A stretch of 64,000 nt of DNA from Natronoflexus pectinivorans. GTDB taxonomy: Bacteria > Bacteroidota > Bacteroidia > Bacteroidales > Marinilabiliaceae. The position numbers and the translations under genes were made by a program. The stretch is taken from assembly GCF_004345615.1 (NCBI RefSeq), contig NZ_SLWK01000004.1, positions 248,001 through 312,000 of the forward strand, written 5' to 3'. Below are positions 32,470-43,217 of this stretch, one piece after another (position 1 is the first letter of the stretch; every line of letters starts with the position of its first letter). The notes under the pieces are model-generated. The model had not been told where the DNA came from. It did no database searches and worked only from the letters and a program-made list of their open reading frames with translations.

Positions 32470-33711
32470 GTGGATATATTTAATAAGATAAGCGCTAACA
32501 TGGGACCGCTGGGTCAATACGGAAAAGAGGCTCACGGTTATTTCATGTTCCCCAAATTGGAAGGGGAAATTAATCCGAAAATGAAATTTAGGGGAAAAGA
32601 AGTCCTCACCTGGAGCTTGAACAACTACCTGGGGCTGGCCAACCATCCGGAAGTCCGTAAAGCAGATGCCGAAGCAGCAAAAGAGTACGGCATGGCATAT
32701 CCTATGGGTGCCAGAATGATGTCAGGCCATACCAGCAAGCATGAAGAGCTTGAAAGCGCGCTTGCTGAATTTGTAAAAAAAGAGGATGCTTACCTTCTTA
32801 ACTTTGGTTACCAGGGTATGGTTTCCATTATTGATACTTTATGTAACAGAAACGACGTTATCGTTTACGATTCCGAGTCGCATGCATGTATTCTTGATGG
32901 ATTACGGCTGCATATGGGAAAACGCTACGTGTTTCCCCATAACAACATTGAGAACCTGAGAAAACAACTTGAACGCGCAACTGCACTGGCAGATAAGCAA
33001 GGCGGCGGTGTTCTCGTGATTACTGAAGGAGTTTTTGGGATGGCAGGTGACTTAGGAAAACTTGATGACATAGTTAAACTAAAGAAAGATTTCAATTTCC
33101 GCATATTGGTTGATGATGCACACGGTTTTGGAACCATGGGTAAAACCGGAGCCGGTGTAGCAGAGCACTTTGATGTTGAAAGTGAAATTGACCTGATATT
33201 TGGAACTTTTGCCAAATCCATGGCCGGAATTGGAGGTTTTGTTGCCGGACGTGAAGATGTAATCAGCTATTTAAGATACAACATGCGTTCACAGATCTTT
33301 GCAAAATCGCTGCCCATGCCAATGGTAATGGGCGCTTTAAAAAGACTGGAACTGTTAAAAACCAAACCGGAATTAAGAGAAAATCTTTGGAAGGTCGTAA
33401 ACGCTTTACAATCCGGATTGCGTGAAAAAGGTTTCAACCTCGGCAAAACAGAAAGCCCTGTAACGCCTGTATTTCTTGACGGAACCGTACCTGAGGCAAC
33501 CACATTAACAATGGATTTGAGAGAAAATTACAACATATTTTGCTCCATCGTGGTGTACCCGGTTATTCCCAAAGGACAAATCATGCTAAGAATTATCCCT
33601 ACAGCAGTGCACACTTTAGAAGACGTGGATTACACCATTAAAGCTTTTGCTGAAGTGGCCGAAAAATTAAAAGCAGGACATTATAAGGCAGATAAAATTG
33701 CAAGTATTTAA
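32470..33711 (+). CDS. PLP-dependent alpha-oxoamine synthase (serine palmitoyltransferase or relative)
   Basis: This 413-residue PLP enzyme condenses an amino acid with an acyl thioester and releases CO2. It has family residues His138 stacking on PLP (DSESHAC), VDDAHG (Asp216, His218) and the Schiff-base Lys249 in GTFAKSMAGIGGF. The sequence resembles the Bacteroidota group used for sphingolipid base synthesis (serine palmitoyltransferase) and the related cysteate acyltransferase of sulfonolipid producers. Glycine C-acetyltransferase and BioF are less likely because no tdh or bio genes are nearby. The start is GTG at 32470, which gives the expected N-terminus. It is monocistronic with a strong terminator. 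Exact substrates cannot be read from sequence alone. Confidence 0.85.
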   Translation: MDIFNKISANMGPLGQYGKEAHGYFMFPKLEGEINPKMKFRGKEVLTWSLNNYLGLANHPEVRKADAEAAKEYGMAYPMGARMMSGHTSKHEELESALAEFVKKEDAYLLNFGYQGMVSIIDTLCNRNDVIVYDSESHACILDGLRLHMGKRYVFPHNNIENLRKQLERATALADKQGGGVLVITEGVFGMAGDLGKLDDIVKLKKDFNFRILVDDAHGFGTMGKTGAGVAEHFDVESEIDLIFGTFAKSMAGIGGFVAGREDVISYLRYNMRSQIFAKSLPMPMVMGALKRLELLKTKPELRENLWKVVNALQSGLREKGFNLGKTESPVTPVFLDGTVPEATTLTMDLRENYNIFCSIVVYPVIPKGQIMLRIIPTAVHTLEDVDYTIKAFAEVAEKLKAGHYKADKIASI

Positions 33712-33734
33712 TATTAAGTGATAACGCATAATCG

Positions 33735-33764
33735 AAAAAGCTGTCGGAAACGACAGCTTTTTTT
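33735..33764 (+). terminator. Terminator of the oxoamine synthase gene
   Basis: A perfect 12-bp stem (33735-33746 with 33751-33762), GAAA tetraloop and a run of seven T (33758-33764). Confidence 0.95.
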
Positions 33765-33965
33765 GTATCTATATTTAATTTAAAATCCTTATACAACAAA
33801 AAAACATTCATTGGTCAATAAAAATCAAACAGTTAACAAAATTTCATCAACAAAACATTTCATAGTATCGTATTTATATCTATATTAAATGTCTATATCT
33901 CTACCACTTATTAAGAGCAACTGATAAATTCAGGTTGTTACTTAAAAAACATAACCCCAAAACCA

Positions 33966-35135
33966 ATGAACAAAGCCAAGAGTAAAATACTAATTGTGGA
34001 CGACAGCAAGGTAAATCTCACCCTTCTGAATAAATCCTTAAGTCTGGAAGGCTATCCGTTCGATCAGGCTATGAATGGATTTGAAGCAATAGACTTGCTG
34101 TGGAATAATCATTACGATCTGGTTTTACTTGATATTCACATGCCGGGGATGGACGGTTTTGAAGTATGCAGGAAAATAAGAAACAATCCTGACTTTATAA
34201 ACCTGCCGGTAATTTTTCTCACCGCTCAAAGTGATCGCGAAAGTATTCTCGAAGGTTTCAGAGTAGGTGCACAGGATTATATCATCAAACCCTTTGACCA
34301 CCAGGAACTAATCATGAGGGTTGAAACTCATCTGACTTTAAAACATAGTTTGGAGCAACTTAAAACATTAAATGCATCTTTAGAAACCGAGGTAAAAGCA
34401 AGAACAGAAGAGTTACTGAAAGCCAAGGAAAAAGCTGAAGAGAGCGACCAATTAAAAACCGCTTTCCTTCAGAACCTATCACATGAGATCAGAACGCCCA
34501 TGAATGGAATTCTCGGATTTACACAGTTATTAAAAAGAAAACCGGACGACCCAAGCAGCTATGCATATTATGTTGAAATGATTGAATTATCGGGGATACG
34601 CATGATGAACACCATCAATGCTTTGGTCGATATCTCAAAAATTGAAACCGGTCAAATATTTTTGAATCGAACAGACTTTAGCATCAATAATCTATTGATG
34701 GAAATTATGCAACTACATGAAAACTTTGCAGAAAAGAGAAAACTCTCAATTGAAATTAAAAATCATTTACCGCCATCATTTAGAACCATTCATTCAGATT
34801 ACGACAAACTTAGTAAAATACTATCAAATCTGGTTGATAACGCCATAAAATTTAGTTACTCAGGTTCTATAATTATCGAATGCACCAAAGATACTGACTT
34901 AGTTAATTTTTATATTAAAGATTCAGGAATAGGTATTCCAAAAGAAATGCATGAAGCAATATTTGAGAGATTTATTCAAGCTAATACAGAGCTTTCGAGA
35001 GGACACGAAGGTATAGGGCTTGGACTTCCAATCTCAAAAGCGTATATTGAAGTACTCGGCGGAACAATATCATTAGAGAGTGAACCTGGTAGAGGTTCAG
35101 TTTTTCATTTCACAATTCCCGCTAATAATGATTAA
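33966..35135 (+). CDS. Receiver-histidine kinase hybrid (cytoplasmic)
   Basis: This 389-residue protein begins with a receiver domain (about 7-120) with acidic pocket VDD, phospho-acceptor Asp56 (VLLDIHMPG) and Lys108 (IKPF). A coiled-coil linker leads to a histidine kinase core with His173 (NLSHEIRTPMNG), N-box NLVDNAIKFS, G1 DSGIGIPK and G2 GIGLGLPIS. It has no membrane segment, so its input comes through the receiver. The next gene, 41 bases on, is a lone receiver, which makes the pair a likely phosphorelay; a phosphotransfer protein is missing locally. Two-component hybrids of this receiver-first order are common in Bacteroidota. Confidence 0.92.
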   Translation: MNKAKSKILIVDDSKVNLTLLNKSLSLEGYPFDQAMNGFEAIDLLWNNHYDLVLLDIHMPGMDGFEVCRKIRNNPDFINLPVIFLTAQSDRESILEGFRVGAQDYIIKPFDHQELIMRVETHLTLKHSLEQLKTLNASLETEVKARTEELLKAKEKAEESDQLKTAFLQNLSHEIRTPMNGILGFTQLLKRKPDDPSSYAYYVEMIELSGIRMMNTINALVDISKIETGQIFLNRTDFSINNLLMEIMQLHENFAEKRKLSIEIKNHLPPSFRTIHSDYDKLSKILSNLVDNAIKFSYSGSIIIECTKDTDLVNFYIKDSGIGIPKEMHEAIFERFIQANTELSRGHEGIGLGLPISKAYIEVLGGTISLESEPGRGSVFHFTIPANND

Positions 35136-35176
35136 TGCAATAAAGGAGAGATGCATAATCTTTGAATGAGAGTTAT

Positions 35177-35560
35177 ATGGAGACATCAGAACAGTTAAGC
35201 CGGCTAAAAGTCCTTATTGTTGAGGATGACTTTATTAACATGGAATTTCTCATTGAAATTCTCGGGCCATATGTTGCTGAATTATTTCGTGCTACCAATG
35301 GCCAAGAAGCCATTGACATGACATTAAACCAAAGCTTAGCCATTGATTTAATTTTAATGGATATTAAAATGCCTTTCATGGATGGATTTGAAGCAACCAG
35401 ACTCATACGAGAACATGGCATTTTAATACCTGTGATAGCACAAACGGCCTATGCTAGCGACTTCGACAAAAAGAAAATTAATCAGGCCGGTTTTGATGGT
35501 TATCTTGCAAAACCTATTGATGAGTCATTGCTGTTTCAAACCATACTAAAAGTATTGTAG
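35177..35560 (+). CDS. Single-domain response regulator
   Basis: The protein is almost only a receiver domain: acidic pair EDD near the N-terminus, phospho-acceptor Asp in LILMDIKMPF (residue 62 from this start), Thr in AQTAYAS and Lys in LAKPID. It has no output domain, so it likely relays phosphate or acts by protein contact, as CheY or Spo0F do. It is downstream of the receiver-kinase hybrid and probably co-transcribed. The ATG at 35177 is chosen; a TTG at 35162 in the same frame would add five residues. A Shine-Dalgarno AAAGGAGAG lies at 35141-35149, a little far from both. Confidence 0.88.
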   Translation: METSEQLSRLKVLIVEDDFINMEFLIEILGPYVAELFRATNGQEAIDMTLNQSLAIDLILMDIKMPFMDGFEATRLIREHGILIPVIAQTAYASDFDKKKINQAGFDGYLAKPIDESLLFQTILKVL

Positions 35561-35804
35561 AAAATAAATTCTATTTTGCTTATTCCCATAAACCCCAATT
35601 TTATTTTGCATTTCGATGCATTACATCGAAATTTGCATCATATCTCATTAATCTTCAGACATAGCTTCTGCCAATTTGGCGATATTCAGTGTATATTATT
35701 TGTAGACAAAGGAACTTAATGATACTATCATGCTGGTTCAAACCTTTGTACAAAACATTTTCCATAAATCTATCTCCCTCAAAACAATTCAATTAAGATT
35801 ATTT

Positions 35805-35869
35805 AACTAACTTCTTAGTCGTTTTTTGTCAAAAAGCATTGACTGACTAATTATTTAGTCGTACGTTTG
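35805..35869 (+). promoter_or_regulatory. Twin BlaI-type operator dyads and promoter of the M56/BlaI locus
   Basis: Two similar dyads, ACTAA-CTTC-TTAGT (35806-35819) and GACTAA-TTAT-TTAGTC (35845-35860), have centres exactly 40 bp apart. The second lies between a -33 TTG (35839-35841) and a -7 TACGTTTG (35862-35869), with 20-base spacing. A repressor bound there would block the promoter. The BlaI-type protein encoded in the operon is the obvious candidate. Confidence 0.75.
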
Positions 35870-35919
35870 TATTGACGGATTGAAAATCTAATTAAAGGAA
35901 CCTTACAACTACTCATAAA

Positions 35920-37683
35920 ATGGAATCTATAATCGGATACATTCTGAAATCTTCGCTTTGGTTAAGCTGTTTCGCATCTATATACTTCCTATTTCTGCGA
36001 AACGAAAGATATTTTTTTCTAAACCGTTTGTACCTGATTTCAGGAATACTAGCAGCATTCATATTTCCATTCATAAACTTTAGCTATAAGGTACTTTTAA
36101 CTTCCTTACCAGTTCCTAATTCATTACCTCCTATCAATTCTGAATCATCACAAATAACAGAGGCAGTAATTATTGATCAAGCATTTCATTTTAATTGGAC
36201 TGCCTATCTAGCAATAATATTCACAACAGGTTTTGCCATATTTCTTTTTCGAATACTAAAACAAAGCTATTCTCTATATAAAATTATTAAACGTTCAGAA
36301 GTTGTTGTCAAGCAAGAAATAAAAATAGTTGAATCCGAAGAATTCAAAACTCATTTTTCATTTTTTACTTATGTGTTTGTCAATCCTTTAGTCTCAGGCA
36401 CGTCAACAACGGAAATATTGAAACATGAAAAAGAACATATCCGCCAAATGCACTGGATTGATCTTATACTTTCGGAACTCATTATTCTTTTTCAATGGTT
36501 TAATCCAACAGCTTGGATTTATGGGCGTTTTATAAGGCAAAACCATGAATATCTGGCCGACACAAAAGCTATACAACATTCTGAAAACCCGGCTCTTTAT
36601 AAAGCCACTCTCATTAACTACCTATTTGGTGGTGAAGTAATCCGACTTGCTAACTCATTTAACTATTCCCTAAACAAAAAAAGATTTGCCATGATGACTA
36701 ATAAAAAAACTTCAACATTAAGAAAATCAAAAATTCTTTTGATTGTGCCCGTTGTAATGTTCGTTTTTTATGCATTTGCTCAACCTGAGCATGTTTTCGC
36801 CGATAGCGAAAGCATTGTAGTAAACGAAAATACAGATCAATCGACTAATACTATTTCAGGCATTGTTTACAGAGAAGATGGAACTCCATTGCATGGTGCA
36901 AGCGTCATCATCAGGGGCACTTCGAACGGAACTGTTTCAAATAAAGATGGAGTCTTTAATCTTTCAGATGTACCTACAGAAAGCCAAATAGTTTTCTCCT
37001 TTGTTGGCCTTAAGTCTGTAATAACTAGACCTGAATTTACGGAAACGATGAAAGTTGTACTAATTAATATAAACGAGCCACTTGAAAACATAGTAGTTGT
37101 AGGATATGGTCATAAAAGTGAACTGGATACTGCAATAAAAACTACAGTACACCATAAAAATGATAATGAACCATTATATATTTTAGACGGACAAGTAATC
37201 AGCAAATCAGAATTCAATAAACTAAACCATGATAACATTGAACACATAAGTGTATACAAAATCGATGAAGCCATAAAAATATATGGAGAAAAAGGTCAAT
37301 ATGGCGTGATTGAAATCACAACAAAAAAAACAGTTACAACTGATCTGGAAAACGAGGATAACAGTAAAGAAATTTTTATAGTCGTTGAACAAATGCCTGA
37401 ATTTCTGGGAGGTAAAGACGCCTTAATGCGTTTTATAGCTACCTCCATTAGATATCCGATAAGCGCACAAGAGAAAAACATGCAAGGTCAAGTTTTGGTG
37501 CAATTTATTGTTCAGAAAACTGGACAAATTACCAATGCTACCATTTTAAAGGGTGTTGATCCTTCTTTAGATAGTGAAGCTTTAAGAGTTGTACAGTCCA
37601 TGCCCGAGTGGAATCCAGGAAAACAAAGAAACATCCCAGTTGATGTGGCATATACTTTATCAATCGACTTCATTTTGCAATAA
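35920..37683 (+). CDS. BlaR1-like M56 membrane peptidase with carboxypeptidase-regulatory, SusC-plug-like and TonB C-terminal parts
   Basis: This 587-residue inner-membrane protein has four hydrophobic helices (about 8-26, 36-56, 94-112, 271-287) and an M56 zinc peptidase site HEKEH at 169-173 with NHEYLAD downstream. After the last helix come a carboxypeptidase-regulatory-like domain (about 312-382, SGIVYREDGTPLHGA), a segment like the end of a SusC plug (PLYILDGQ to KGQYGVIEITTK, about 418-469), and a TonB C-terminal domain (about 495-585). M56 proteins of the BlaR1/MecR1 type cleave a BlaI repressor when a signal arrives. The penicillin-binding sensor of true BlaR1 is absent. It is first in the operon, 8 bases before the BlaI-type gene. 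Confidence 0.9.
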   Translation: MESIIGYILKSSLWLSCFASIYFLFLRNERYFFLNRLYLISGILAAFIFPFINFSYKVLLTSLPVPNSLPPINSESSQITEAVIIDQAFHFNWTAYLAIIFTTGFAIFLFRILKQSYSLYKIIKRSEVVVKQEIKIVESEEFKTHFSFFTYVFVNPLVSGTSTTEILKHEKEHIRQMHWIDLILSELIILFQWFNPTAWIYGRFIRQNHEYLADTKAIQHSENPALYKATLINYLFGGEVIRLANSFNYSLNKKRFAMMTNKKTSTLRKSKILLIVPVVMFVFYAFAQPEHVFADSESIVVNENTDQSTNTISGIVYREDGTPLHGASVIIRGTSNGTVSNKDGVFNLSDVPTESQIVFSFVGLKSVITRPEFTETMKVVLININEPLENIVVVGYGHKSELDTAIKTTVHHKNDNEPLYILDGQVISKSEFNKLNHDNIEHISVYKIDEAIKIYGEKGQYGVIEITTKKTVTTDLENEDNSKEIFIVVEQMPEFLGGKDALMRFIATSIRYPISAQEKNMQGQVLVQFIVQKTGQITNATILKGVDPSLDSEALRVVQSMPEWNPGKQRNIPVDVAYTLSIDFILQ

Positions 37684-37691
37684 AACGAACT

Positions 37692-38090
37692 ATGCAACTA
37701 ACGAAAGCAGAAGAACAAATAATGCAGATTTTATGGAAACTGGAAGAAGGGCCGGTGCGAGATGTCAGGGAACAATTTCCTGACCCAAAACCTGCCCGCA
37801 ATACTGTATCAACCATAATACGAATACTAGAAAAAAAAGGGTTTGTTGACCACAAAACCTATGGCAATGTGCACGTATATTTCCCTCTAATTAAAAAGGA
37901 AGATTATTCAAAAAATCAACTTTTTGGATTAATGAATGACTATTTCAACAATTCATTTCCTGCCATGGCCTCCTTTTTTGCTAAAGAAAAAGATTTGTCG
38001 ATTAGAGAACTGGAGGAGCTTATGGAACAAACAAAGCTGGAGTTAAAGCAATTTAAACCTGGCTCGAATAACAACAAGAATAAAGATTAA
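37692..38090 (+). CDS. BlaI/MecI/CopY family transcriptional repressor
   Basis: This 132-residue protein has the N-terminal winged helix of the BlaI family (LTKAEEQIMQILWKLEEG, then RNTVSTIIRILEKKGFVDH) and a C-terminal dimerisation helix region. BlaI proteins bind short dyads and are inactivated by proteolysis from a partner M56 membrane peptidase. Here it sits between two such peptidases, 8 bases after the first and 17 before the second, so the three genes are one transcript. The twin ACTAA/TTAGT dyads at the operon promoter are its likely sites, giving autorepression. The actual inducer is unknown; there is no beta-lactamase gene nearby. Confidence 0.93.
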   Translation: MQLTKAEEQIMQILWKLEEGPVRDVREQFPDPKPARNTVSTIIRILEKKGFVDHKTYGNVHVYFPLIKKEDYSKNQLFGLMNDYFNNSFPAMASFFAKEKDLSIRELEELMEQTKLELKQFKPGSNNNKNKD

Positions 38091-38107
38091 CCCTTTAAAG
38101 TATAATT

Positions 38108-39628
38108 ATGAATGCTCTAATCCTCTATCTTTTAAAATCGTCGCTGTGGCTTTCAGCCTTTGCCTTGGTCTATTATCTTTTTTTACGCAACCAACGACTA
38201 TTCTTTGCAAACCGAATATTCCTGATTGTAGGAATACTGGCATCGATCATATTACCCTTATTTACTTTTTCCTATCCAACTCTGTTAGTTGACTCGTTAA
38301 CACATACCGAACAGGTGATTGTTGGGGAATTAGTTGCAGGAGAAGTCATCACTGATGATATCACCAGACGCATAAATTGGGTGTTCATTTTACCGATACT
38401 GTTTGCCATAGGTCTGCTTGCCTTAGCCTCCAGACTCCTCTACCAAACCAGCATTCTATTCAAAGAAATTGTTAATTCACCACGAACTTACGTCAATGAC
38501 TTTACAGTTATAGAATCAAACCGATACCCTGCCCCGTTTTCATTCTTCTCTTATGTTTTTATTAATCCCTCTGTTAATAAAAGCGATATGAGAGAAATTG
38601 TGAGACACGAGGCGGAGCACATTAAGCAATATCATTGTATTGACCTGATGCTCTCCGAAATTGTCCGTTTATTGCTTTGGTTTAATCCGGTTGCTTGGTT
38701 ATATGGTCATTTCGTTCGCCAAAACCATGAATATCTGGCAGATAATCACGCAATACAAAACTGCAGTAATCCGGCAATTTACAGAGCTGTTCTCATTAAC
38801 CAGATGGTAGGTGGAGAAGCCATTCGTCTGGGCAATATGTTCTGTTACTCACTCAACAAAAAACGATTTACCATGATGACAAAACAAACAACAACAGCAT
38901 TACAGAAGTTAAAATTCTTATGGATTTTACCAGCCATTGCCTTTACAGTTTATGCGTGTACAAAACTGGATGAGAACTATGGCTCCATCGAAAAAGGGGA
39001 ACACTCACCCTCCACAATCCCCCCACATGAAGAGGGAGTCATTTACTTCATTGACGGCGTCATTACAGACGTGCATGAGGAAGTTTTAAATAAAGTACTG
39101 ACTCCTGACATGATAGCTTCAATTCAGATTTATAAAGATGAGTTTGCTCTTGAGAAATTCGGAAATCTTGGGAAAAATGGAGTCATTGAGATAAACACCC
39201 GAACTCAGGATTTTGGTAAAACGCTGGCTGATTTTTATCGAAATATGACTGAAGATCAAAGAGCAAACCTTCCAAGAGAAACAATTCGCAGCAGTGATGG
39301 AGAGGCCGTTTTCGTGATGGTAGAAAACATGCCCGAATTTCCAGGAGGTATAGAAGCTCTTCAAGACTACCTCAGAAGCAGTATAAGGTATCCTACACTG
39401 GCAGCTGCAGACGGAATTCAAGGGCGCGTATATGTTCAATTCGTCATTACGAAAGAAGGTGAAATAGACAAGGTTAAGATACTACGTGGAGTTCATCCTT
39501 TACTTGATAATGAAGCATACAGGGTAGTCAGCCAAATGCCCAACTGGCAACCCGGAACACAAAGAAACATCCCAGTGGCCGTAAGTTACACCGTTCCCAT
39601 AAACTTTGTTCTAAACAACGAAGTGTAA
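38108..39628 (+). CDS. Second BlaR1-like M56 membrane peptidase with TonB C-terminal domain
   Basis: This 506-residue protein is a paralogue of the one two genes upstream. It has the same four-helix plan, zinc site HEAEH at 167-171 and NHEYLAD, then a short SusC-plug-like segment (about 311-365, IYFIDGVITDV and GKNGVIEINTRT) and a TonB C-terminal domain (about 410-500, NMPEFPGGIEAL to NIPVAVSYTVPINF). It lacks the carboxypeptidase-regulatory domain, so the two copies differ mostly in the periplasmic part. YACTKLDEN after helix 4 contains a Cys. The pair with one repressor suggests two inputs to one regulator; that is inference. Confidence 0.9.
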   Translation: MNALILYLLKSSLWLSAFALVYYLFLRNQRLFFANRIFLIVGILASIILPLFTFSYPTLLVDSLTHTEQVIVGELVAGEVITDDITRRINWVFILPILFAIGLLALASRLLYQTSILFKEIVNSPRTYVNDFTVIESNRYPAPFSFFSYVFINPSVNKSDMREIVRHEAEHIKQYHCIDLMLSEIVRLLLWFNPVAWLYGHFVRQNHEYLADNHAIQNCSNPAIYRAVLINQMVGGEAIRLGNMFCYSLNKKRFTMMTKQTTTALQKLKFLWILPAIAFTVYACTKLDENYGSIEKGEHSPSTIPPHEEGVIYFIDGVITDVHEEVLNKVLTPDMIASIQIYKDEFALEKFGNLGKNGVIEINTRTQDFGKTLADFYRNMTEDQRANLPRETIRSSDGEAVFVMVENMPEFPGGIEALQDYLRSSIRYPTLAAADGIQGRVYVQFVITKEGEIDKVKILRGVHPLLDNEAYRVVSQMPNWQPGTQRNIPVAVSYTVPINFVLNNEV

Positions 39629-39653
39629 CAGTTAAATCCCTAACCCACAAAGC

Positions 39654-39724
39654 AGAAGTTGCCTGACAAGTGCAAGTATACTCTTTAAATAAGAGATGAA
39701 CTTAAAACAGATCAGGCAACTTCT
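39654..39724. repeat. 71-bp palindromic element after the M56 operon
   Basis: Perfect 13-bp inverted repeats (39654-39666 with 39712-39724; AGAAGTTGCCTGA) enclose 45 bases that contain a smaller hairpin CTCTT/AAGAG (about 39681-39695). It may terminate the M56 operon. Confidence 0.8.
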
Positions 39725-39760
39725 CCTATTACTTTGAATGCTAACCCAAAAACAAGCTAT

Positions 39761-41032
39761 ATGCATAGATTTATCTTAATACTAATAGTCCTGATAGTGA
39801 CAAACCATATCTCAGCTTCAAATCAGGAAGCAATTGCAAAACTCGTTGCTGAGCACAAATATGATGAAGCACTGGAGCAAATCAGACTCGCAGAATCATT
39901 AGAAACAGGATTACTCCATCTTAAAATTACGGCACTCAGAAATACAAACAGATTTGAAGAGGCCATAAAGTTTCAGGAGCTGTTATATAAACAGGACACC
40001 ACAAATGTCTATTCCATTTTGGAATTAGCCAACGGATATATGTCGATGTACAACTACAATAATGCCATTTCATATTACCGAAAAGCACGTGAAATAGAAC
40101 CGAAAAACTTTTATATCAGTCAGAGACTTGGAGACGCATTGTTTAATAACAGCCAGTTTTCAGAAGCGAAACAATACTATATAAAATGCCGAAACAATCA
40201 TTCAACACAGCATTTGAATAAACAATTGGGAAGAATTTATGAAAATATAAACCAGCCTGATTCTGCCATCTATTACTATGAGATATCTTTAGACCAAAAT
40301 CCTCGGGATTATTCAGTAGTACTAAGGTTGTCAAATCTATACCGAAGAAATGAGCAATTTAAAGAGGCTTTGGCCACGTCAGACAGATATTTAAAGACTA
40401 ACGACAACAATCTCCGTGTATTGAGATTAAATGGTCAACTACAATTCATTACCGGAAATTACAAAAAAGCACTTCAGAGATATGAAAGATGCTTAACTCT
40501 TGGGGATTCCGGCCTGCATGTGTTGCAATACACAGGTATGTCATATTACAAGACGGATGACTATGACAAAGCCATACCTTTTCTGGAGAAAGCTTTCATC
40601 GAAGCCGAGAAAAACAGCAACATTTGTCTGGTGCTTGCATTAGCATACATCTACACCGGAAGAACTGAATCAGCCATTAATCAATTTCACAAACTAATCG
40701 AAATAGTAACACCCTCTCCCACTCTTTTGGCAACAGCCTACCAACATATAGGGGAAAGCTATACAGATATCAACCAACACGAAATGGCACTGGATATATA
40801 CAAACAGGCCATGATTTCGGTGCCGGGCGACTATCGGTTTCATTACTTCCTGGCTGACTTGTATGACAATTGGTTTAAAAATACTGAAAAGGCGCTCGCT
40901 TATTATGAGAAGATCTTACAGGCTGACACCAATTATGAAGAATTGCCTCCCGGCATGAATCATTTATTGATTAAATATATTGAAAATCGCGTGAACCAAA
41001 TAAAAAAAGAGGCCTTTTGGAGTGCTAACTGA
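39761..41032 (+). CDS. Secreted tetratricopeptide repeat protein
   Basis: From the ATG at 39761 the protein has 423 residues. It starts with a signal peptide (MHRFILILIVLIVTNHISAS) and then consists of TPR helices through its length, with typical repeats such as YNNAISYYRKAREIEPKNF and YDKAIPFLEKAFIEAEK. TPR proteins serve as protein-protein scaffolds; this one should act in the periplasm. The open frame begins 27 bases earlier at a TTG, but the ATG places the basic residue and hydrophobic core correctly. It follows the M56/BlaI operon but after a palindromic element, so a shared role is uncertain. Its stop is directly next to the stop of the convergent gene. Confidence 0.85.
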   Translation: MHRFILILIVLIVTNHISASNQEAIAKLVAEHKYDEALEQIRLAESLETGLLHLKITALRNTNRFEEAIKFQELLYKQDTTNVYSILELANGYMSMYNYNNAISYYRKAREIEPKNFYISQRLGDALFNNSQFSEAKQYYIKCRNNHSTQHLNKQLGRIYENINQPDSAIYYYEISLDQNPRDYSVVLRLSNLYRRNEQFKEALATSDRYLKTNDNNLRVLRLNGQLQFITGNYKKALQRYERCLTLGDSGLHVLQYTGMSYYKTDDYDKAIPFLEKAFIEAEKNSNICLVLALAYIYTGRTESAINQFHKLIEIVTPSPTLLATAYQHIGESYTDINQHEMALDIYKQAMISVPGDYRFHYFLADLYDNWFKNTEKALAYYEKILQADTNYEELPPGMNHLLIKYIENRVNQIKKEAFWSAN

Positions 41033-41914
41033 TTAACCGGAAATATCTCCAAAAAGTGATAGCAATTCCTGCATTTCGTTTGCTTTTTCCTTATGACCTG
41101 CCGTTTCATATGCATAGTAAATATTGTTCAGCATACGCTGAACAATATCTTTATTGCTACATGGCAAAAAGTAATTTACTTTTGGTTCCAGCTTTTGTTG
41201 TTTTACAAAAAACTCAATTTCCTTCCGTCCCAAAACAGCACCTTTGTTAATGGGATTTATGTAAAAAAGAACTGACATTTCGGTATCCTGAGCCACATTA
41301 TTCAAGTCAGCTGCATCGTCAAGATAAGCCAAAATAAAATTCTTGGGCAAATTAACTCCGTAAACAGGAATCCCTAATCGCAAAGCGATTACTGAATATA
41401 TGACTGACAATGAAATGGGATTGCCTTTTCTTGTATCAAGCACGTCGCAAATAAAAGAGTTTTGCGGAGCCATAAAATTGCTATTGTTCCGTGTGTAACC
41501 GTGCACATCAAAAAGAATGTGATTGATGATGCGAACTTTTTCAAGTGCTGTGAGGTGATCATTTAATTCCAACCAGACGTCCTTGCGTAGCTGGTTAATT
41601 TTATCGTTAATTGACTCATAAGTTAATTCAGGATATTGATATTTTGAAACCAGAAAAGCACCGTACAACAAATCATCTTCTGAATTTGCCAACCAATTGC
41701 GAAATCCACTTTTTACATTTTTAAATTGGATGTTATGAATCAGATTTTCAAGGCGTTTTTGGTGAGTAGAGTCAAAGGTCATCTCCCAGGCTTTTTCAAG
41801 ATCGGGAATAATATCAACCTCCTCTTTTAAAAGCTCTCCTTCTACCGTGCTAAATATCTCCTCATTTGGATCATCAAGCAGAGTAATAAGTGCCTGAATT
41901 TTATTCTTATCCAT
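41033..41914 (-). CDS. Transglutaminase-like protein (SirB1/Transglut_core2 type)
   Basis: This 293-residue cytoplasmic-looking protein belongs to the transglutaminase-like superfamily of the SirB1 type, whose function is unsettled. The core motif NSFICDVLDTRKGNPISLSVIYSVIALRLGIPVYGVNLPKNF (residues about 151-192) is diagnostic: it has the segment in which the catalytic Cys normally lies and the hydrophobic helix behind it. The N-terminal 100 residues are helical. No signal peptide is seen. It lies 41 bases after the nucleoside phosphorylase gene on the same strand, so co-transcription is likely. No space remains between its stop and the TPR gene's stop. Confidence 0.82.
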   Translation of the reverse strand: MDKNKIQALITLLDDPNEEIFSTVEGELLKEEVDIIPDLEKAWEMTFDSTHQKRLENLIHNIQFKNVKSGFRNWLANSEDDLLYGAFLVSKYQYPELTYESINDKINQLRKDVWLELNDHLTALEKVRIINHILFDVHGYTRNNSNFMAPQNSFICDVLDTRKGNPISLSVIYSVIALRLGIPVYGVNLPKNFILAYLDDAADLNNVAQDTEMSVLFYINPINKGAVLGRKEIEFFVKQQKLEPKVNYFLPCSNKDIVQRMLNNIYYAYETAGHKEKANEMQELLSLFGDISG

Positions 41915-41955
41915 AATTTTAAAACATCATGTTGGTAAAACGGACAGAAAATTGT

Positions 41956-42831
41956 CTATTTGGCTAATGCATTTAATACATATTCAATCAAACGATTAAC
42001 AACTACCTTGTAATCTTTGCTATAGGTTCCTGCCAACCTGTTAGCAATGATGGCGCATACAGTGGCCGACTGATGCCCCAATAAAGCGGATAAACCATAT
42101 ATGGCTGAACACTCCATTTCATAGTTGGTTATCCGGTAGTCCTCGTATCGAAATGCCGTAATTCGCTCATTTATATCGCTCATAGCCAACGGGAGTCTTA
42201 TAATTCTACCCTGTGGACCATAGAAGCCGGGAGCGGAAATGGTGACACCTTTTATCACCTCATTAGAATCCAACTGTTTCAACAGAGACTCCTCTGCATT
42301 AACAACATAGGGCGCCGAAAGGTTCGAGAGAAAACCAGTTGATTCAACAAAAGACTTTTCAAACATTACATCACAAACCTCATCCCGCTTATCATAAAAA
42401 TTAAGTAAGCCATCAAACCCAATGGCTTTCTCACTCAACAACCAACTGTCAACAGGCAAATCAGCCTGAAGCGAACCGGAAGTGCCAATTCTGACAATCT
42501 TTAATGACTTATGCTCTTTTTTGGGTAATCTGGTGGAAAAATCAACATTTACAAGTGCATCTAGTTCATTTAAAACAATATCAATGTTGTCAGTTCCAAT
42601 TCCGGACGAAAGTACAGTAAAAGATTTATCTTGGTAAACACCGGTTTTCCATACAAACTCACGATTGGCGCCTTCAAAATCAATTTGGTCAAAGAAAGCA
42701 GCAACACCTTCCACTCTGCCCGGGTCTCCAACAAGTATGACCCTGTCACTTAATTCACCGGGCTTAATGTGTAAATGAAACACCGATCCATCGGGATTAA
42801 TGATCAACTCTGACTCTGCAATTCTTTCCAT
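41956..42831 (-). CDS. udp: Nucleoside phosphorylase (uridine phosphorylase type)
   Basis: This 291-residue enzyme is of the PNP/UDP family and splits nucleosides with phosphate to base and ribose-1-phosphate. Conserved parts are VGDPGRVEGVA (phosphate site), SSGIGTDNIDIVLNELDAL, RIGTSGSLQ and the nucleoside-binding YEMECSAIYGLS. The sequence fits the Bacteroidota uridine-phosphorylase-like group; activity on other nucleosides is possible. A TAnnTTTG element (TAATTTTG at 42913-42906) precedes it by about 75 bases, and the leader can form a small GGTTTC/GAAACC hairpin. Confidence 0.88.
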   Translation of the reverse strand: MERIAESELIINPDGSVFHLHIKPGELSDRVILVGDPGRVEGVAAFFDQIDFEGANREFVWKTGVYQDKSFTVLSSGIGTDNIDIVLNELDALVNVDFSTRLPKKEHKSLKIVRIGTSGSLQADLPVDSWLLSEKAIGFDGLLNFYDKRDEVCDVMFEKSFVESTGFLSNLSAPYVVNAEESLLKQLDSNEVIKGVTISAPGFYGPQGRIIRLPLAMSDINERITAFRYEDYRITNYEMECSAIYGLSALLGHQSATVCAIIANRLAGTYSKDYKVVVNRLIEYVLNALAK

Positions 42832-43217
42832 TTATATCATCTTTCATTTATATCGAAAAAGGGTTTCGATAGAAACCTTTGAGCCAATTACTGCAATCGA
42901 CTTTACAAAATTAAGAGAATTAAAACAATCACATTATTCAATTTAATAAAAATTTAAGAATTTACAAAACATAAGTTATCAACATAGCTGTTAATTTCTT
43001 TAGAAAGAAGAGATGAAATAATGTTAACAAAGCAATATGTTTTGTTAAAATAAACCAATCTAAAATATCCAAGCAAATCATATCACACTAATATCCTGAA
43101 ACATACAACCCAAACAAACCCGGCAAAATTCATCACCGCACACGAATCAACAGAATGCAACCATGCTGTCAGTTATACAAAATTACTTTTGTTAGGATGC
43201 GATTCGTTTTTTCTTCC
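42832..43217. other. Divergent intergenic region between udp and DUF4293 genes
   Basis: About 390 very AT-rich bases. It contains the udp promoter element at 42906-42913 and, at the far end, the DUF4293 promoter. Nothing else was recognised. Confidence 0.45.

Follow-up and report, generated by a model that had tools for sequence, protein, structure and literature searches.

A putative autoregulated BlaI switch in Natronoflexus pectinivorans with two M56 metallopeptidases whose sensor halves carry SusC and TonB modules

Introduction

What would a BlaR1-type membrane protease read if its penicillin sensor were replaced by pieces of the outer-membrane transport machinery? This question is raised by a locus at positions 35920-39628 of a 64,000-nucleotide stretch of Natronoflexus pectinivorans DNA (contig NZ_SLWK01000004.1, positions 248,001 to 312,000; hereafter the window), in which the gene for one BlaI/MecI-family repressor lies between genes for two M56 metallopeptidases, here termed A and B, tightly packed and all on the forward strand. 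The bacteria that host such loci run many SusC-type import systems, and to our knowledge little is known of the ways, beyond the known sigma-factor and two-component routes, in which the condition of receptors or of the envelope is passed on to transcription. The analysis presented here suggests that the locus encodes a switch of a widespread and so far uncharacterised type, through which import at the outer membrane may be reported. A preliminary description of the window had proposed that the two peptidases may sense the state of TonB-dependent receptors or envelope stress and release one shared repressor; its observations hold and slightly understated what the locus contains, and its interpretation is supported only in part.

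Results

The three open reading frames (ORFs) were confirmed by an ORF check of the window at the coordinates of the preliminary description. Gene A (35920-37683) encodes a 587-residue protein consisting of an M56 peptidase half, a SusC N-terminal extension (NTE), a TonB box, the C-terminal half of a SusC plug (half-plug) and a TonB C-terminal domain (CTD), as identified from the ORF, Pfam, NCBIfam, a family profile and an AlphaFold model. After a gap of 8 bp follows the repressor gene (37692-38090; 132 residues), identified by Penicillinase_R at 101.9 bits and MecI 1okr at E 2e-10, and then gene B (38108-39628), whose 506-residue product combines an M56 peptidase half, a half-plug and a TonB CTD (ORF, Pfam, AlphaFold model). 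A and B are 46% identical over the whole proteins.

The N-terminal half of A (35920-36804) was recognized by Pfam and by structure match as a BlaR1-like membrane and zinc-protease domain, with HExxH at 36424-36438 and E210 at 36547-36549, and a pattern search placed HExxH of B (H167-H171) at 38606-38620. The zinc pattern HExxH-36-ExxxD runs from H169 with E210 in A and from H167 with E208 in B. Pfam Peptidase_M56 scores were 36.6 bits for A and 30.2 bits for B, the latter just below the cut-off of 31. A profile of the M56 half matched BlaR1 across the whole membrane domain, including HExxH and the downstream Glu (E 3e-8), and a family profile search of the PDB recovered BlaR1 (8exp) at 2.5e-5. 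The AlphaFold models, with mean predicted local distance difference test (pLDDT) values of 80.8 for A and 80.0 for B, matched BlaR1 in VIA comparisons with Z 15.9 (215 aligned, 3.8 Å) and Z 15.5 (222 aligned, 3.9 Å), respectively; the domain arrangement was not taken from these models given predicted template modelling scores of 0.48 and 0.55. Four likely membrane helices, assigned by eye from the model helices rather than by a membrane predictor, span residues 2-26, 32-51, 93-125 and 266-285 of A and 2-26, 32-51, 91-123 and 264-283 of B, in agreement with the earlier statement that both M56 proteins keep HExxH and four helices. Among 93 surveyed M56 ORFs, HExxH was present in 91 and the full zinc pattern in 90; the three without the full pattern are an ORF cut off by its contig (L128) and two fragments of a gene whose frame is broken (L052). 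In this last case (L052:5151-6648, genome G022) an M56-TonB gene is divided over two overlapping frames, representing either a broken gene or an assembly error.

No penicillin-binding, transpeptidase or beta-lactamase family was found in A or B by Pfam or NCBIfam at E values up to 1, consistent with the earlier proposal that the penicillin sensor has been replaced by outer-membrane transport pieces; the C-terminal halves are taken up by the NTE (A only), half-plug and TonB modules. The NTE of A (36841-37083) was identified by Pfam CarbopepD_reg_2 (45.6 bits, cut-off 32.2) and NCBIfam and matched 9hfj by VIA with Z 14.6 over 80 residues at 1.7 Å. This segment had been described as a carboxypeptidase-regulatory domain found in the first copy only; it is indeed present in A only, and its identity is that of a SusC NTE. 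The canonical TonB box of A, VVVGYG (residues 392-397, 37093-37110), lies between NTE and plug at the SusC-box position in profile alignments, is identical at 6/6 residues in the orthologue of genome G001, and is an addition to the preliminary description, in which it was overlooked. The half-plug of A (37171-37326; pLDDT 91-94) was recognized by the family profile and by a partial Pfam Plug match of 17.7 bits, below the cut-off of 23.9, that covers profile positions 54-107 of 107. Alignment to SusC homologues indicated that approximately 50 receptor residues, corresponding to the first plug half, are absent between the box and the plug remainder; the SusC-plug-like segment noted earlier is present in both A and B, as the C-terminal half alone and not as a whole plug. 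The NCBIfam SusC/RagA model scored A at 107.5 bits, its cut-off of 368 being set for whole receptors. In searches of the PDB with the family profile, the SusC homologue 8aa4 was matched at E 2.4e-32 over profile positions 303-464 (NTE, TonB-box region and plug), the plug stretches alone matched RagA 6sml_B at E 2.9e-11 and 8ypt_C at E 8.6e-9, and TonB CTDs were matched at best at 9.5e-10. There was no SusC plug among the 50 of 379 Foldseek matches listed for the A model, and the plug assignment in A therefore rests on sequence profiles.

In B, the half-plug (residues 312-364, 39041-39199) was identified with a local hidden Markov model and by a VIA match to the SusC plug 6z9a_B (55 residues, 2.1 Å, 34% identity, Z 4.3) that is weak and tied with unrelated rows. 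Neither CarbopepD nor Plug was listed for B by Pfam, and neither an NTE nor a TonB box was found in it. TonB CTDs are present in both proteins, as described earlier, at 37372-37680 in A (Pfam TonB_C 63.1 bits, cut-off 24.6; VIA 6i97_D Z 10.1) and at 39314-39619 in B (69.5 bits; 6i97_D Z 11.1), and are 63% and 67% identical, respectively, to the TonB domain of the genome's own 226-residue TonB. The claim of two different periplasmic halves is thereby borne out, with NTE, TonB box, half-plug and TonB domain in A and half-plug and TonB domain in B; the two halves may, as proposed earlier, give two inputs. Comparison of A with its G001 orthologue gave identities of 163/295 in the M56 half, 41/77 in the NTE, 6/6 in the box, 33/52 in the half-plug and 62/103 in the TonB domain, and of 8/42 in the linkers that flank the box or precede the TonB domain. 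Pairing of the box with the TonB domain in cis was considered for the A model, in which DSSP assigned a strand at 391-395 and a VIA row to 6sly spans 388-587, and was rejected; pLDDT averages approximately 46 there, and 6sly is matched in the same way over 348-505 of B, a protein without a box.

Upstream of gene A two BlaI-type operator sequences were identified by pattern search. The main one, GACTAATTATTTAGTC (35845-35860, forward strand), is the sole exact GACTA-N6-TAGTC in the 4.47 Mb genome, and AACTAACTTCTTAGTC (35805-35820), with one mismatch, lies 40 bp from it, as in many relatives. The Bacteroidetes -33/-7 promoter consensus is TTTG..TAnnTTTG, and matching elements, a -33-like TTG (35839-35841) and the -7 element TACGTTTG (35862-35869), flank the main site, so that the putative operator TGACTA-N6-TAGTCA falls exactly between them. 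The composite TTGACTGACTAATTATTTAGTCGTACGTTTG at 35839-35869 had zero matches in 100 shuffles. If one mismatch is allowed, the palindrome by itself is unremarkable in the window (2 found against 0.88 expected); what carries the operator argument is the promoter context, the comparison with relatives and the rarity of the site across the genome.

For the relatives, 83 upstream regions were compared, five loci having been left out (no BlaI or short upstream) and one duplicate removed; these regions are related and some nearly identical, and counts are hence not independent events. ACTA-N6-TAGT occurred in 49/83 upstream regions (the next of 12 permutations in 3), GACTA-N6-TAGTC in 31/83 (59 other permutations averaged 0.1, highest 3) and TGACTA-N6-TAGTCA in 17/83 (179 other permutations at most 1). 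Sites with up to two mismatches were present in 64 regions and at least two such sites in 48, compared with 15 and 1 for a reversed-pattern control, and a second copy approximately 40 bp upstream is frequent, spacings of 39-41 being counted 36 times and a spacing of 20 nine times. Of the 64 regions with a site, 40 have TAnnTTTG starting exactly 1 nt past the last palindrome and 41 have it 0-4 nt past, against 0.76 expected. Of the 12 family genomes whose M56 matches are strongest, 11 have a TGACTA site directly in front of the operon; the exception is G070, which has none. In a class-wide search GACTA-N6-TAGTYRTANNTTTG matched in 2/395 genomes, namely at the A-BlaI-B operon and at one site also before a BlaI ORF, and the exact spelling of the composite promoter is therefore lineage-restricted. 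Taken with the promoter anatomy, these counts suggest that the operator sites would bind BlaI.

The genome contains one full-length BlaI, as determined by Penicillinase_R search, two M56 genes and the one exact GACTA-N6-TAGTC at the A-BlaI-B operon. That this only full-length BlaI lies between A and B fits the earlier notion of one shared repressor, and the single exact site together with the single BlaI indicates a circuit that looks autoregulatory with no other obvious target. The shared BlaI thus appears from the sequence to control mainly its own operon, and the M56-TonB proteins themselves seem to be the main output of the circuit. With up to one mismatch allowed the palindrome occurs 32 times in the genome, two of these being the operators, 25 lying inside ORFs of at least 100 aa (some maybe spurious) and five being intergenic; of the intergenic sites, one precedes a 570-aa ORF by 119 bp and another a 291-aa ORF by 37 bp, and BlaI may accordingly have minor targets besides its own operon. 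The reversed control occurs 283 times under the same rule, and the palindrome seems to be avoided outside the operon. Candidates for a wider regulon were rejected, as a third ACTAA-N4-TTAGT site in the genome is within a long ORF and the further exact sites checked in G001 and G039 fall within ORFs of 550 and 873 aa. A second Penicillinase_R match (22.7 bits including neighbours, cut-off 22.6; positions 7-63 only) in a 99-aa ORF was likewise set aside as marginal, the ORF reading by eye like an ArsR-type regulator. In BlaI itself F95-F96 (37974-37979) align with the Asn-Phe pair at which MecI is cleaved; across 84 BlaI sequences the first column of this pair is Phe in 66 and the second in 71.

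The wider distribution was examined in 101 sources, comprising the window and 100 loci (some contigs twice) that were picked by similarity to A, so that module counts lean to the modules of A. Some match to A was present in 71/71 family genomes, in some with a TonB domain only among the matches listed, and BlaI occurred together with an M56 gene in 98/101 sources. M56 genes on both sides of BlaI were found only in the window and in L038 (genome G001), and the usual system is, judging from these sequences, BlaI with one M56 gene. A class-wide set of 40 M56 loci, the class being taken as Bacteroidia from named relatives, was hand-picked from same-class matches of approximately 34-63 bits, with rows above 100 bits, which represent another M56 type, left out. 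BlaI lay within the same 5-kb stretch in 40/40, and Pfam detected TonB_C in 12, Plug in 7, CarbopepD_reg_2 in 3, Amidase_3 in 4 and POTRA in 1, several of the 40 M56 proteins being without a recognized C-terminal domain. On these sequence matches, BlaI-M56 pairs with mosaics of envelope modules are widespread in the class and not special to the A-BlaI-B locus. Three BlaI-linked M56 proteins (L261:2101-3765, L269:1054-2718 and L292:2317-3783) have an N-acetylmuramoyl-L-alanine amidase as their C-terminal half (Amidase_3, E 4e-30 to 8e-37), and such proteins are possible peptidoglycan sensors of the same design. Another BlaI-linked M56 protein (L264:2341-3819) carries POTRA domains (E 2.8e-17), a further outer-membrane module that is a candidate sensor.

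Discussion

These data are consistent with an autoregulated proteolytic switch of the BlaR1-BlaI type in which the sensor half is built of Ton-pathway modules and the input is Ton-pathway engagement, a reading to which we give about an even chance. Its wiring is well supported by the sequence; Ton engagement as the signal is what we infer from domain identity and conservation only. In the BlaR1/MecR1 systems, as described in the available text of PMC7593790, a periplasmic signal is relayed to a membrane protease, which removes the repressor. In the A-BlaI-B operon, BlaI dimers on the two palindromes, which lie 40 bp apart with the proximal one between -33 and -7, would repress transcription. 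The most likely docking sites for the periplasmic TonB CTDs of A and B would be the TonB boxes of SusC-type receptors, and A presumably copies the receptor side of this contact with its NTE, TonB box and half-plug. By analogy with BlaR1/MecR1, altered engagement would shift the last membrane helix and activate the zinc protease, and BlaI would be cut near the MecI-aligned position, resulting in induction of the operon. For Porphyromonas gingivalis, the available text of PMC10470040 lists a BlaI/MecI/CopY gene as differentially expressed with haemin and attributes a site of differential methylation to the M56 gene next to it, an indirect hint, by analogy, that such operons respond to nutrient state.

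Several observations weigh against this reading. The aligned scissile pair of BlaI is Phe-Phe and not Asn-Phe, no Ton module is universal among the surveyed M56 ORFs, the TonB box pattern is present in 6/93 of them with a looser pattern marking a few more, and class-wide counts of TonB_C (12/40) and Plug (7/40) are low. The short, non-proline-rich linker before the TonB domains makes their reach to the outer membrane uncertain, and regulation of the operon by itself alone leaves the physiological output unclear.

The same mosaic modules would also suit an envelope-stress sensor, in which NTE, half-plug and TonB domains act as bait for assembly factors or for SusC that is misfolded or has not been assembled, and the protease is triggered when the bait is occupied. 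The Amidase_3 (4/40) and POTRA (1/40) domains of other M56 proteins in the class point to general envelope surveillance, and an NTE-like fold is present in the extended BAM complex of Flavobacterium johnsoniae (9n2d_E, Z 10.0); the TonB CTDs are, however, 63-68% identical to housekeeping TonBs, suggesting specific TonB-box binding over generic stress sensing, and this explanation is considered unlikely. A further, improbable reading is a competition sensor, in which the CTD of either A or B would hold the box of A at rest and the TonB boxes of active outer-membrane receptors would compete for the CTDs. It presupposes that the M56 proteins dimerize as BlaR1 does, A having box and CTD in one chain and B the CTD only. 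If true, the sensor would report receptor demand and would represent a new kind of signalling across the membrane, with the docking motif of the pathway itself as the latch. The canonical box of A, in the SusC position and identical in the G001 orthologue, could alternatively be pulled with the half-plug by the real TonB as in a receptor, so that A reports the activity of the Ton motor and B provides a second readout; this is distinctly improbable, as the box is absent from B and from most family members (present in 6/93).

The near-intact TonB CTDs could instead mark A and B as alternative TonB energy transducers, the M56 half being a mere membrane anchor or a self-regulating domain. In place of the single N-terminal helix and proline-rich linker that are hallmarks of such transducers, A and B have an M56 half with several helices and a short non-proline linker, and the genome's own TonB, whose gene adjoins a second TonB-like ORF, does have the proline-rich linker; retention of the zinc pattern (90/93) and of a nearby BlaI (40/40) also argues against this possibility, which is very improbable. 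A classical beta-lactam resistance regulator, as BlaI and M56 homology might suggest, is scarcely credible given that Pfam and NCBIfam list no penicillin-binding or beta-lactamase domain in A or B, that no class A beta-lactamase was matched in the genome (other classes were not searched) and that the sole exact operator is at the operon itself.

BlaR1/BlaI systems have palindromic operators in an autoregulated promoter, as the A-BlaI-B operon appears to have, and the BlaR1/MecR1-BlaI/MecI systems of Staphylococcus aureus likewise combine a four-helix M56 zinc protease with a BlaI-type repressor beside it. They differ in that their sensor is a class D beta-lactamase-like domain, whereas that of A and B is composed of SusC NTE, TonB box, half-plug and TonB modules, and in that here two M56 genes surround one BlaI, no resistance gene is seen and Phe-Phe occupies the aligned cleavage site. 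A shares with SusC/RagA receptors the NTE, TonB box and C-terminal plug half in identical order; unlike them, it lacks the first plug half and the whole barrel and ends in a TonB domain. TonB proteins with a MecR1-like N-terminal extension, which like A and B join a MecR1-like half to a TonB CTD, were reportedly described by Chu, Peacock and Vogel in BioMetals in 2007, apparently without report of a SusC NTE, TonB box, half-plug, BlaI linkage or promoter design. The M56-TonB fusion as such thus seems to be known already, and what is new is the promoter-embedded putative BlaI operator. Cell-surface signalling by a TonB-dependent receptor and a membrane anti-sigma factor, as outlined in the available text of PMC7593790, is alike in that the state of an outer-membrane receptor is read at the inner membrane and relayed by proteolysis; the output there is an ECF sigma factor and here would be M56-cut BlaI, and the comparison is of how the systems work only. 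No description of the A/B architecture was found among the papers listed in the literature searched, which comprised titles and abstract openings with subscription journals mostly outside it; the available text of PMC12204202 holds no mention of the M56 protease, and 'M56' in that of PMC12596196, PMC12578637 and PMC12502800 is a reagent number.

One worked example could explain many genes annotated merely as M56 metallopeptidase or BlaR1-like antibiotic regulator, and interchangeable envelope modules may serve as sensors in many BlaI-M56 loci across the class. The N. pectinivorans genome has 39 other places that match the NTE-plug segment of A, and the single promoter-embedded operator would provide a ready reporter.

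History of gene A and additional features

The congeneric genome G041 has BlaI-B only at this locus, and within the compared region (33001-43000) its DNA matches window positions 33774-35564 and 37692-43000 and not the 2.1 kb between. In an M56 tree of 82 rows, A groups with its G001 counterpart (96/92) and B with G041 and the B of G001 (99/86); path lengths are similar (A-A 1.34, B-B 1.2). The tree and the G041 matches on either side of A indicate that A is a paralogue of old standing, whose absence from G041 is most simply explained by loss; horizontal gain of A appears to fit less well given the grouping and path lengths. In L056:5362-8647, two M56 genes stand in tandem after BlaI, with half-plugs and motifs resembling a TonB box and with no clear C-terminal TonB domain, and in L072, L081, L085 and L086 there are four half-plug matches per M56 protein, as if plug copy number were free to vary. 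Between B and a downstream tetratricopeptide repeat gene, an inverted repeat agaagttgcctga / tcaggcaacttct was noted by eye at 39654-39724 and represents a possible terminator or hairpin.

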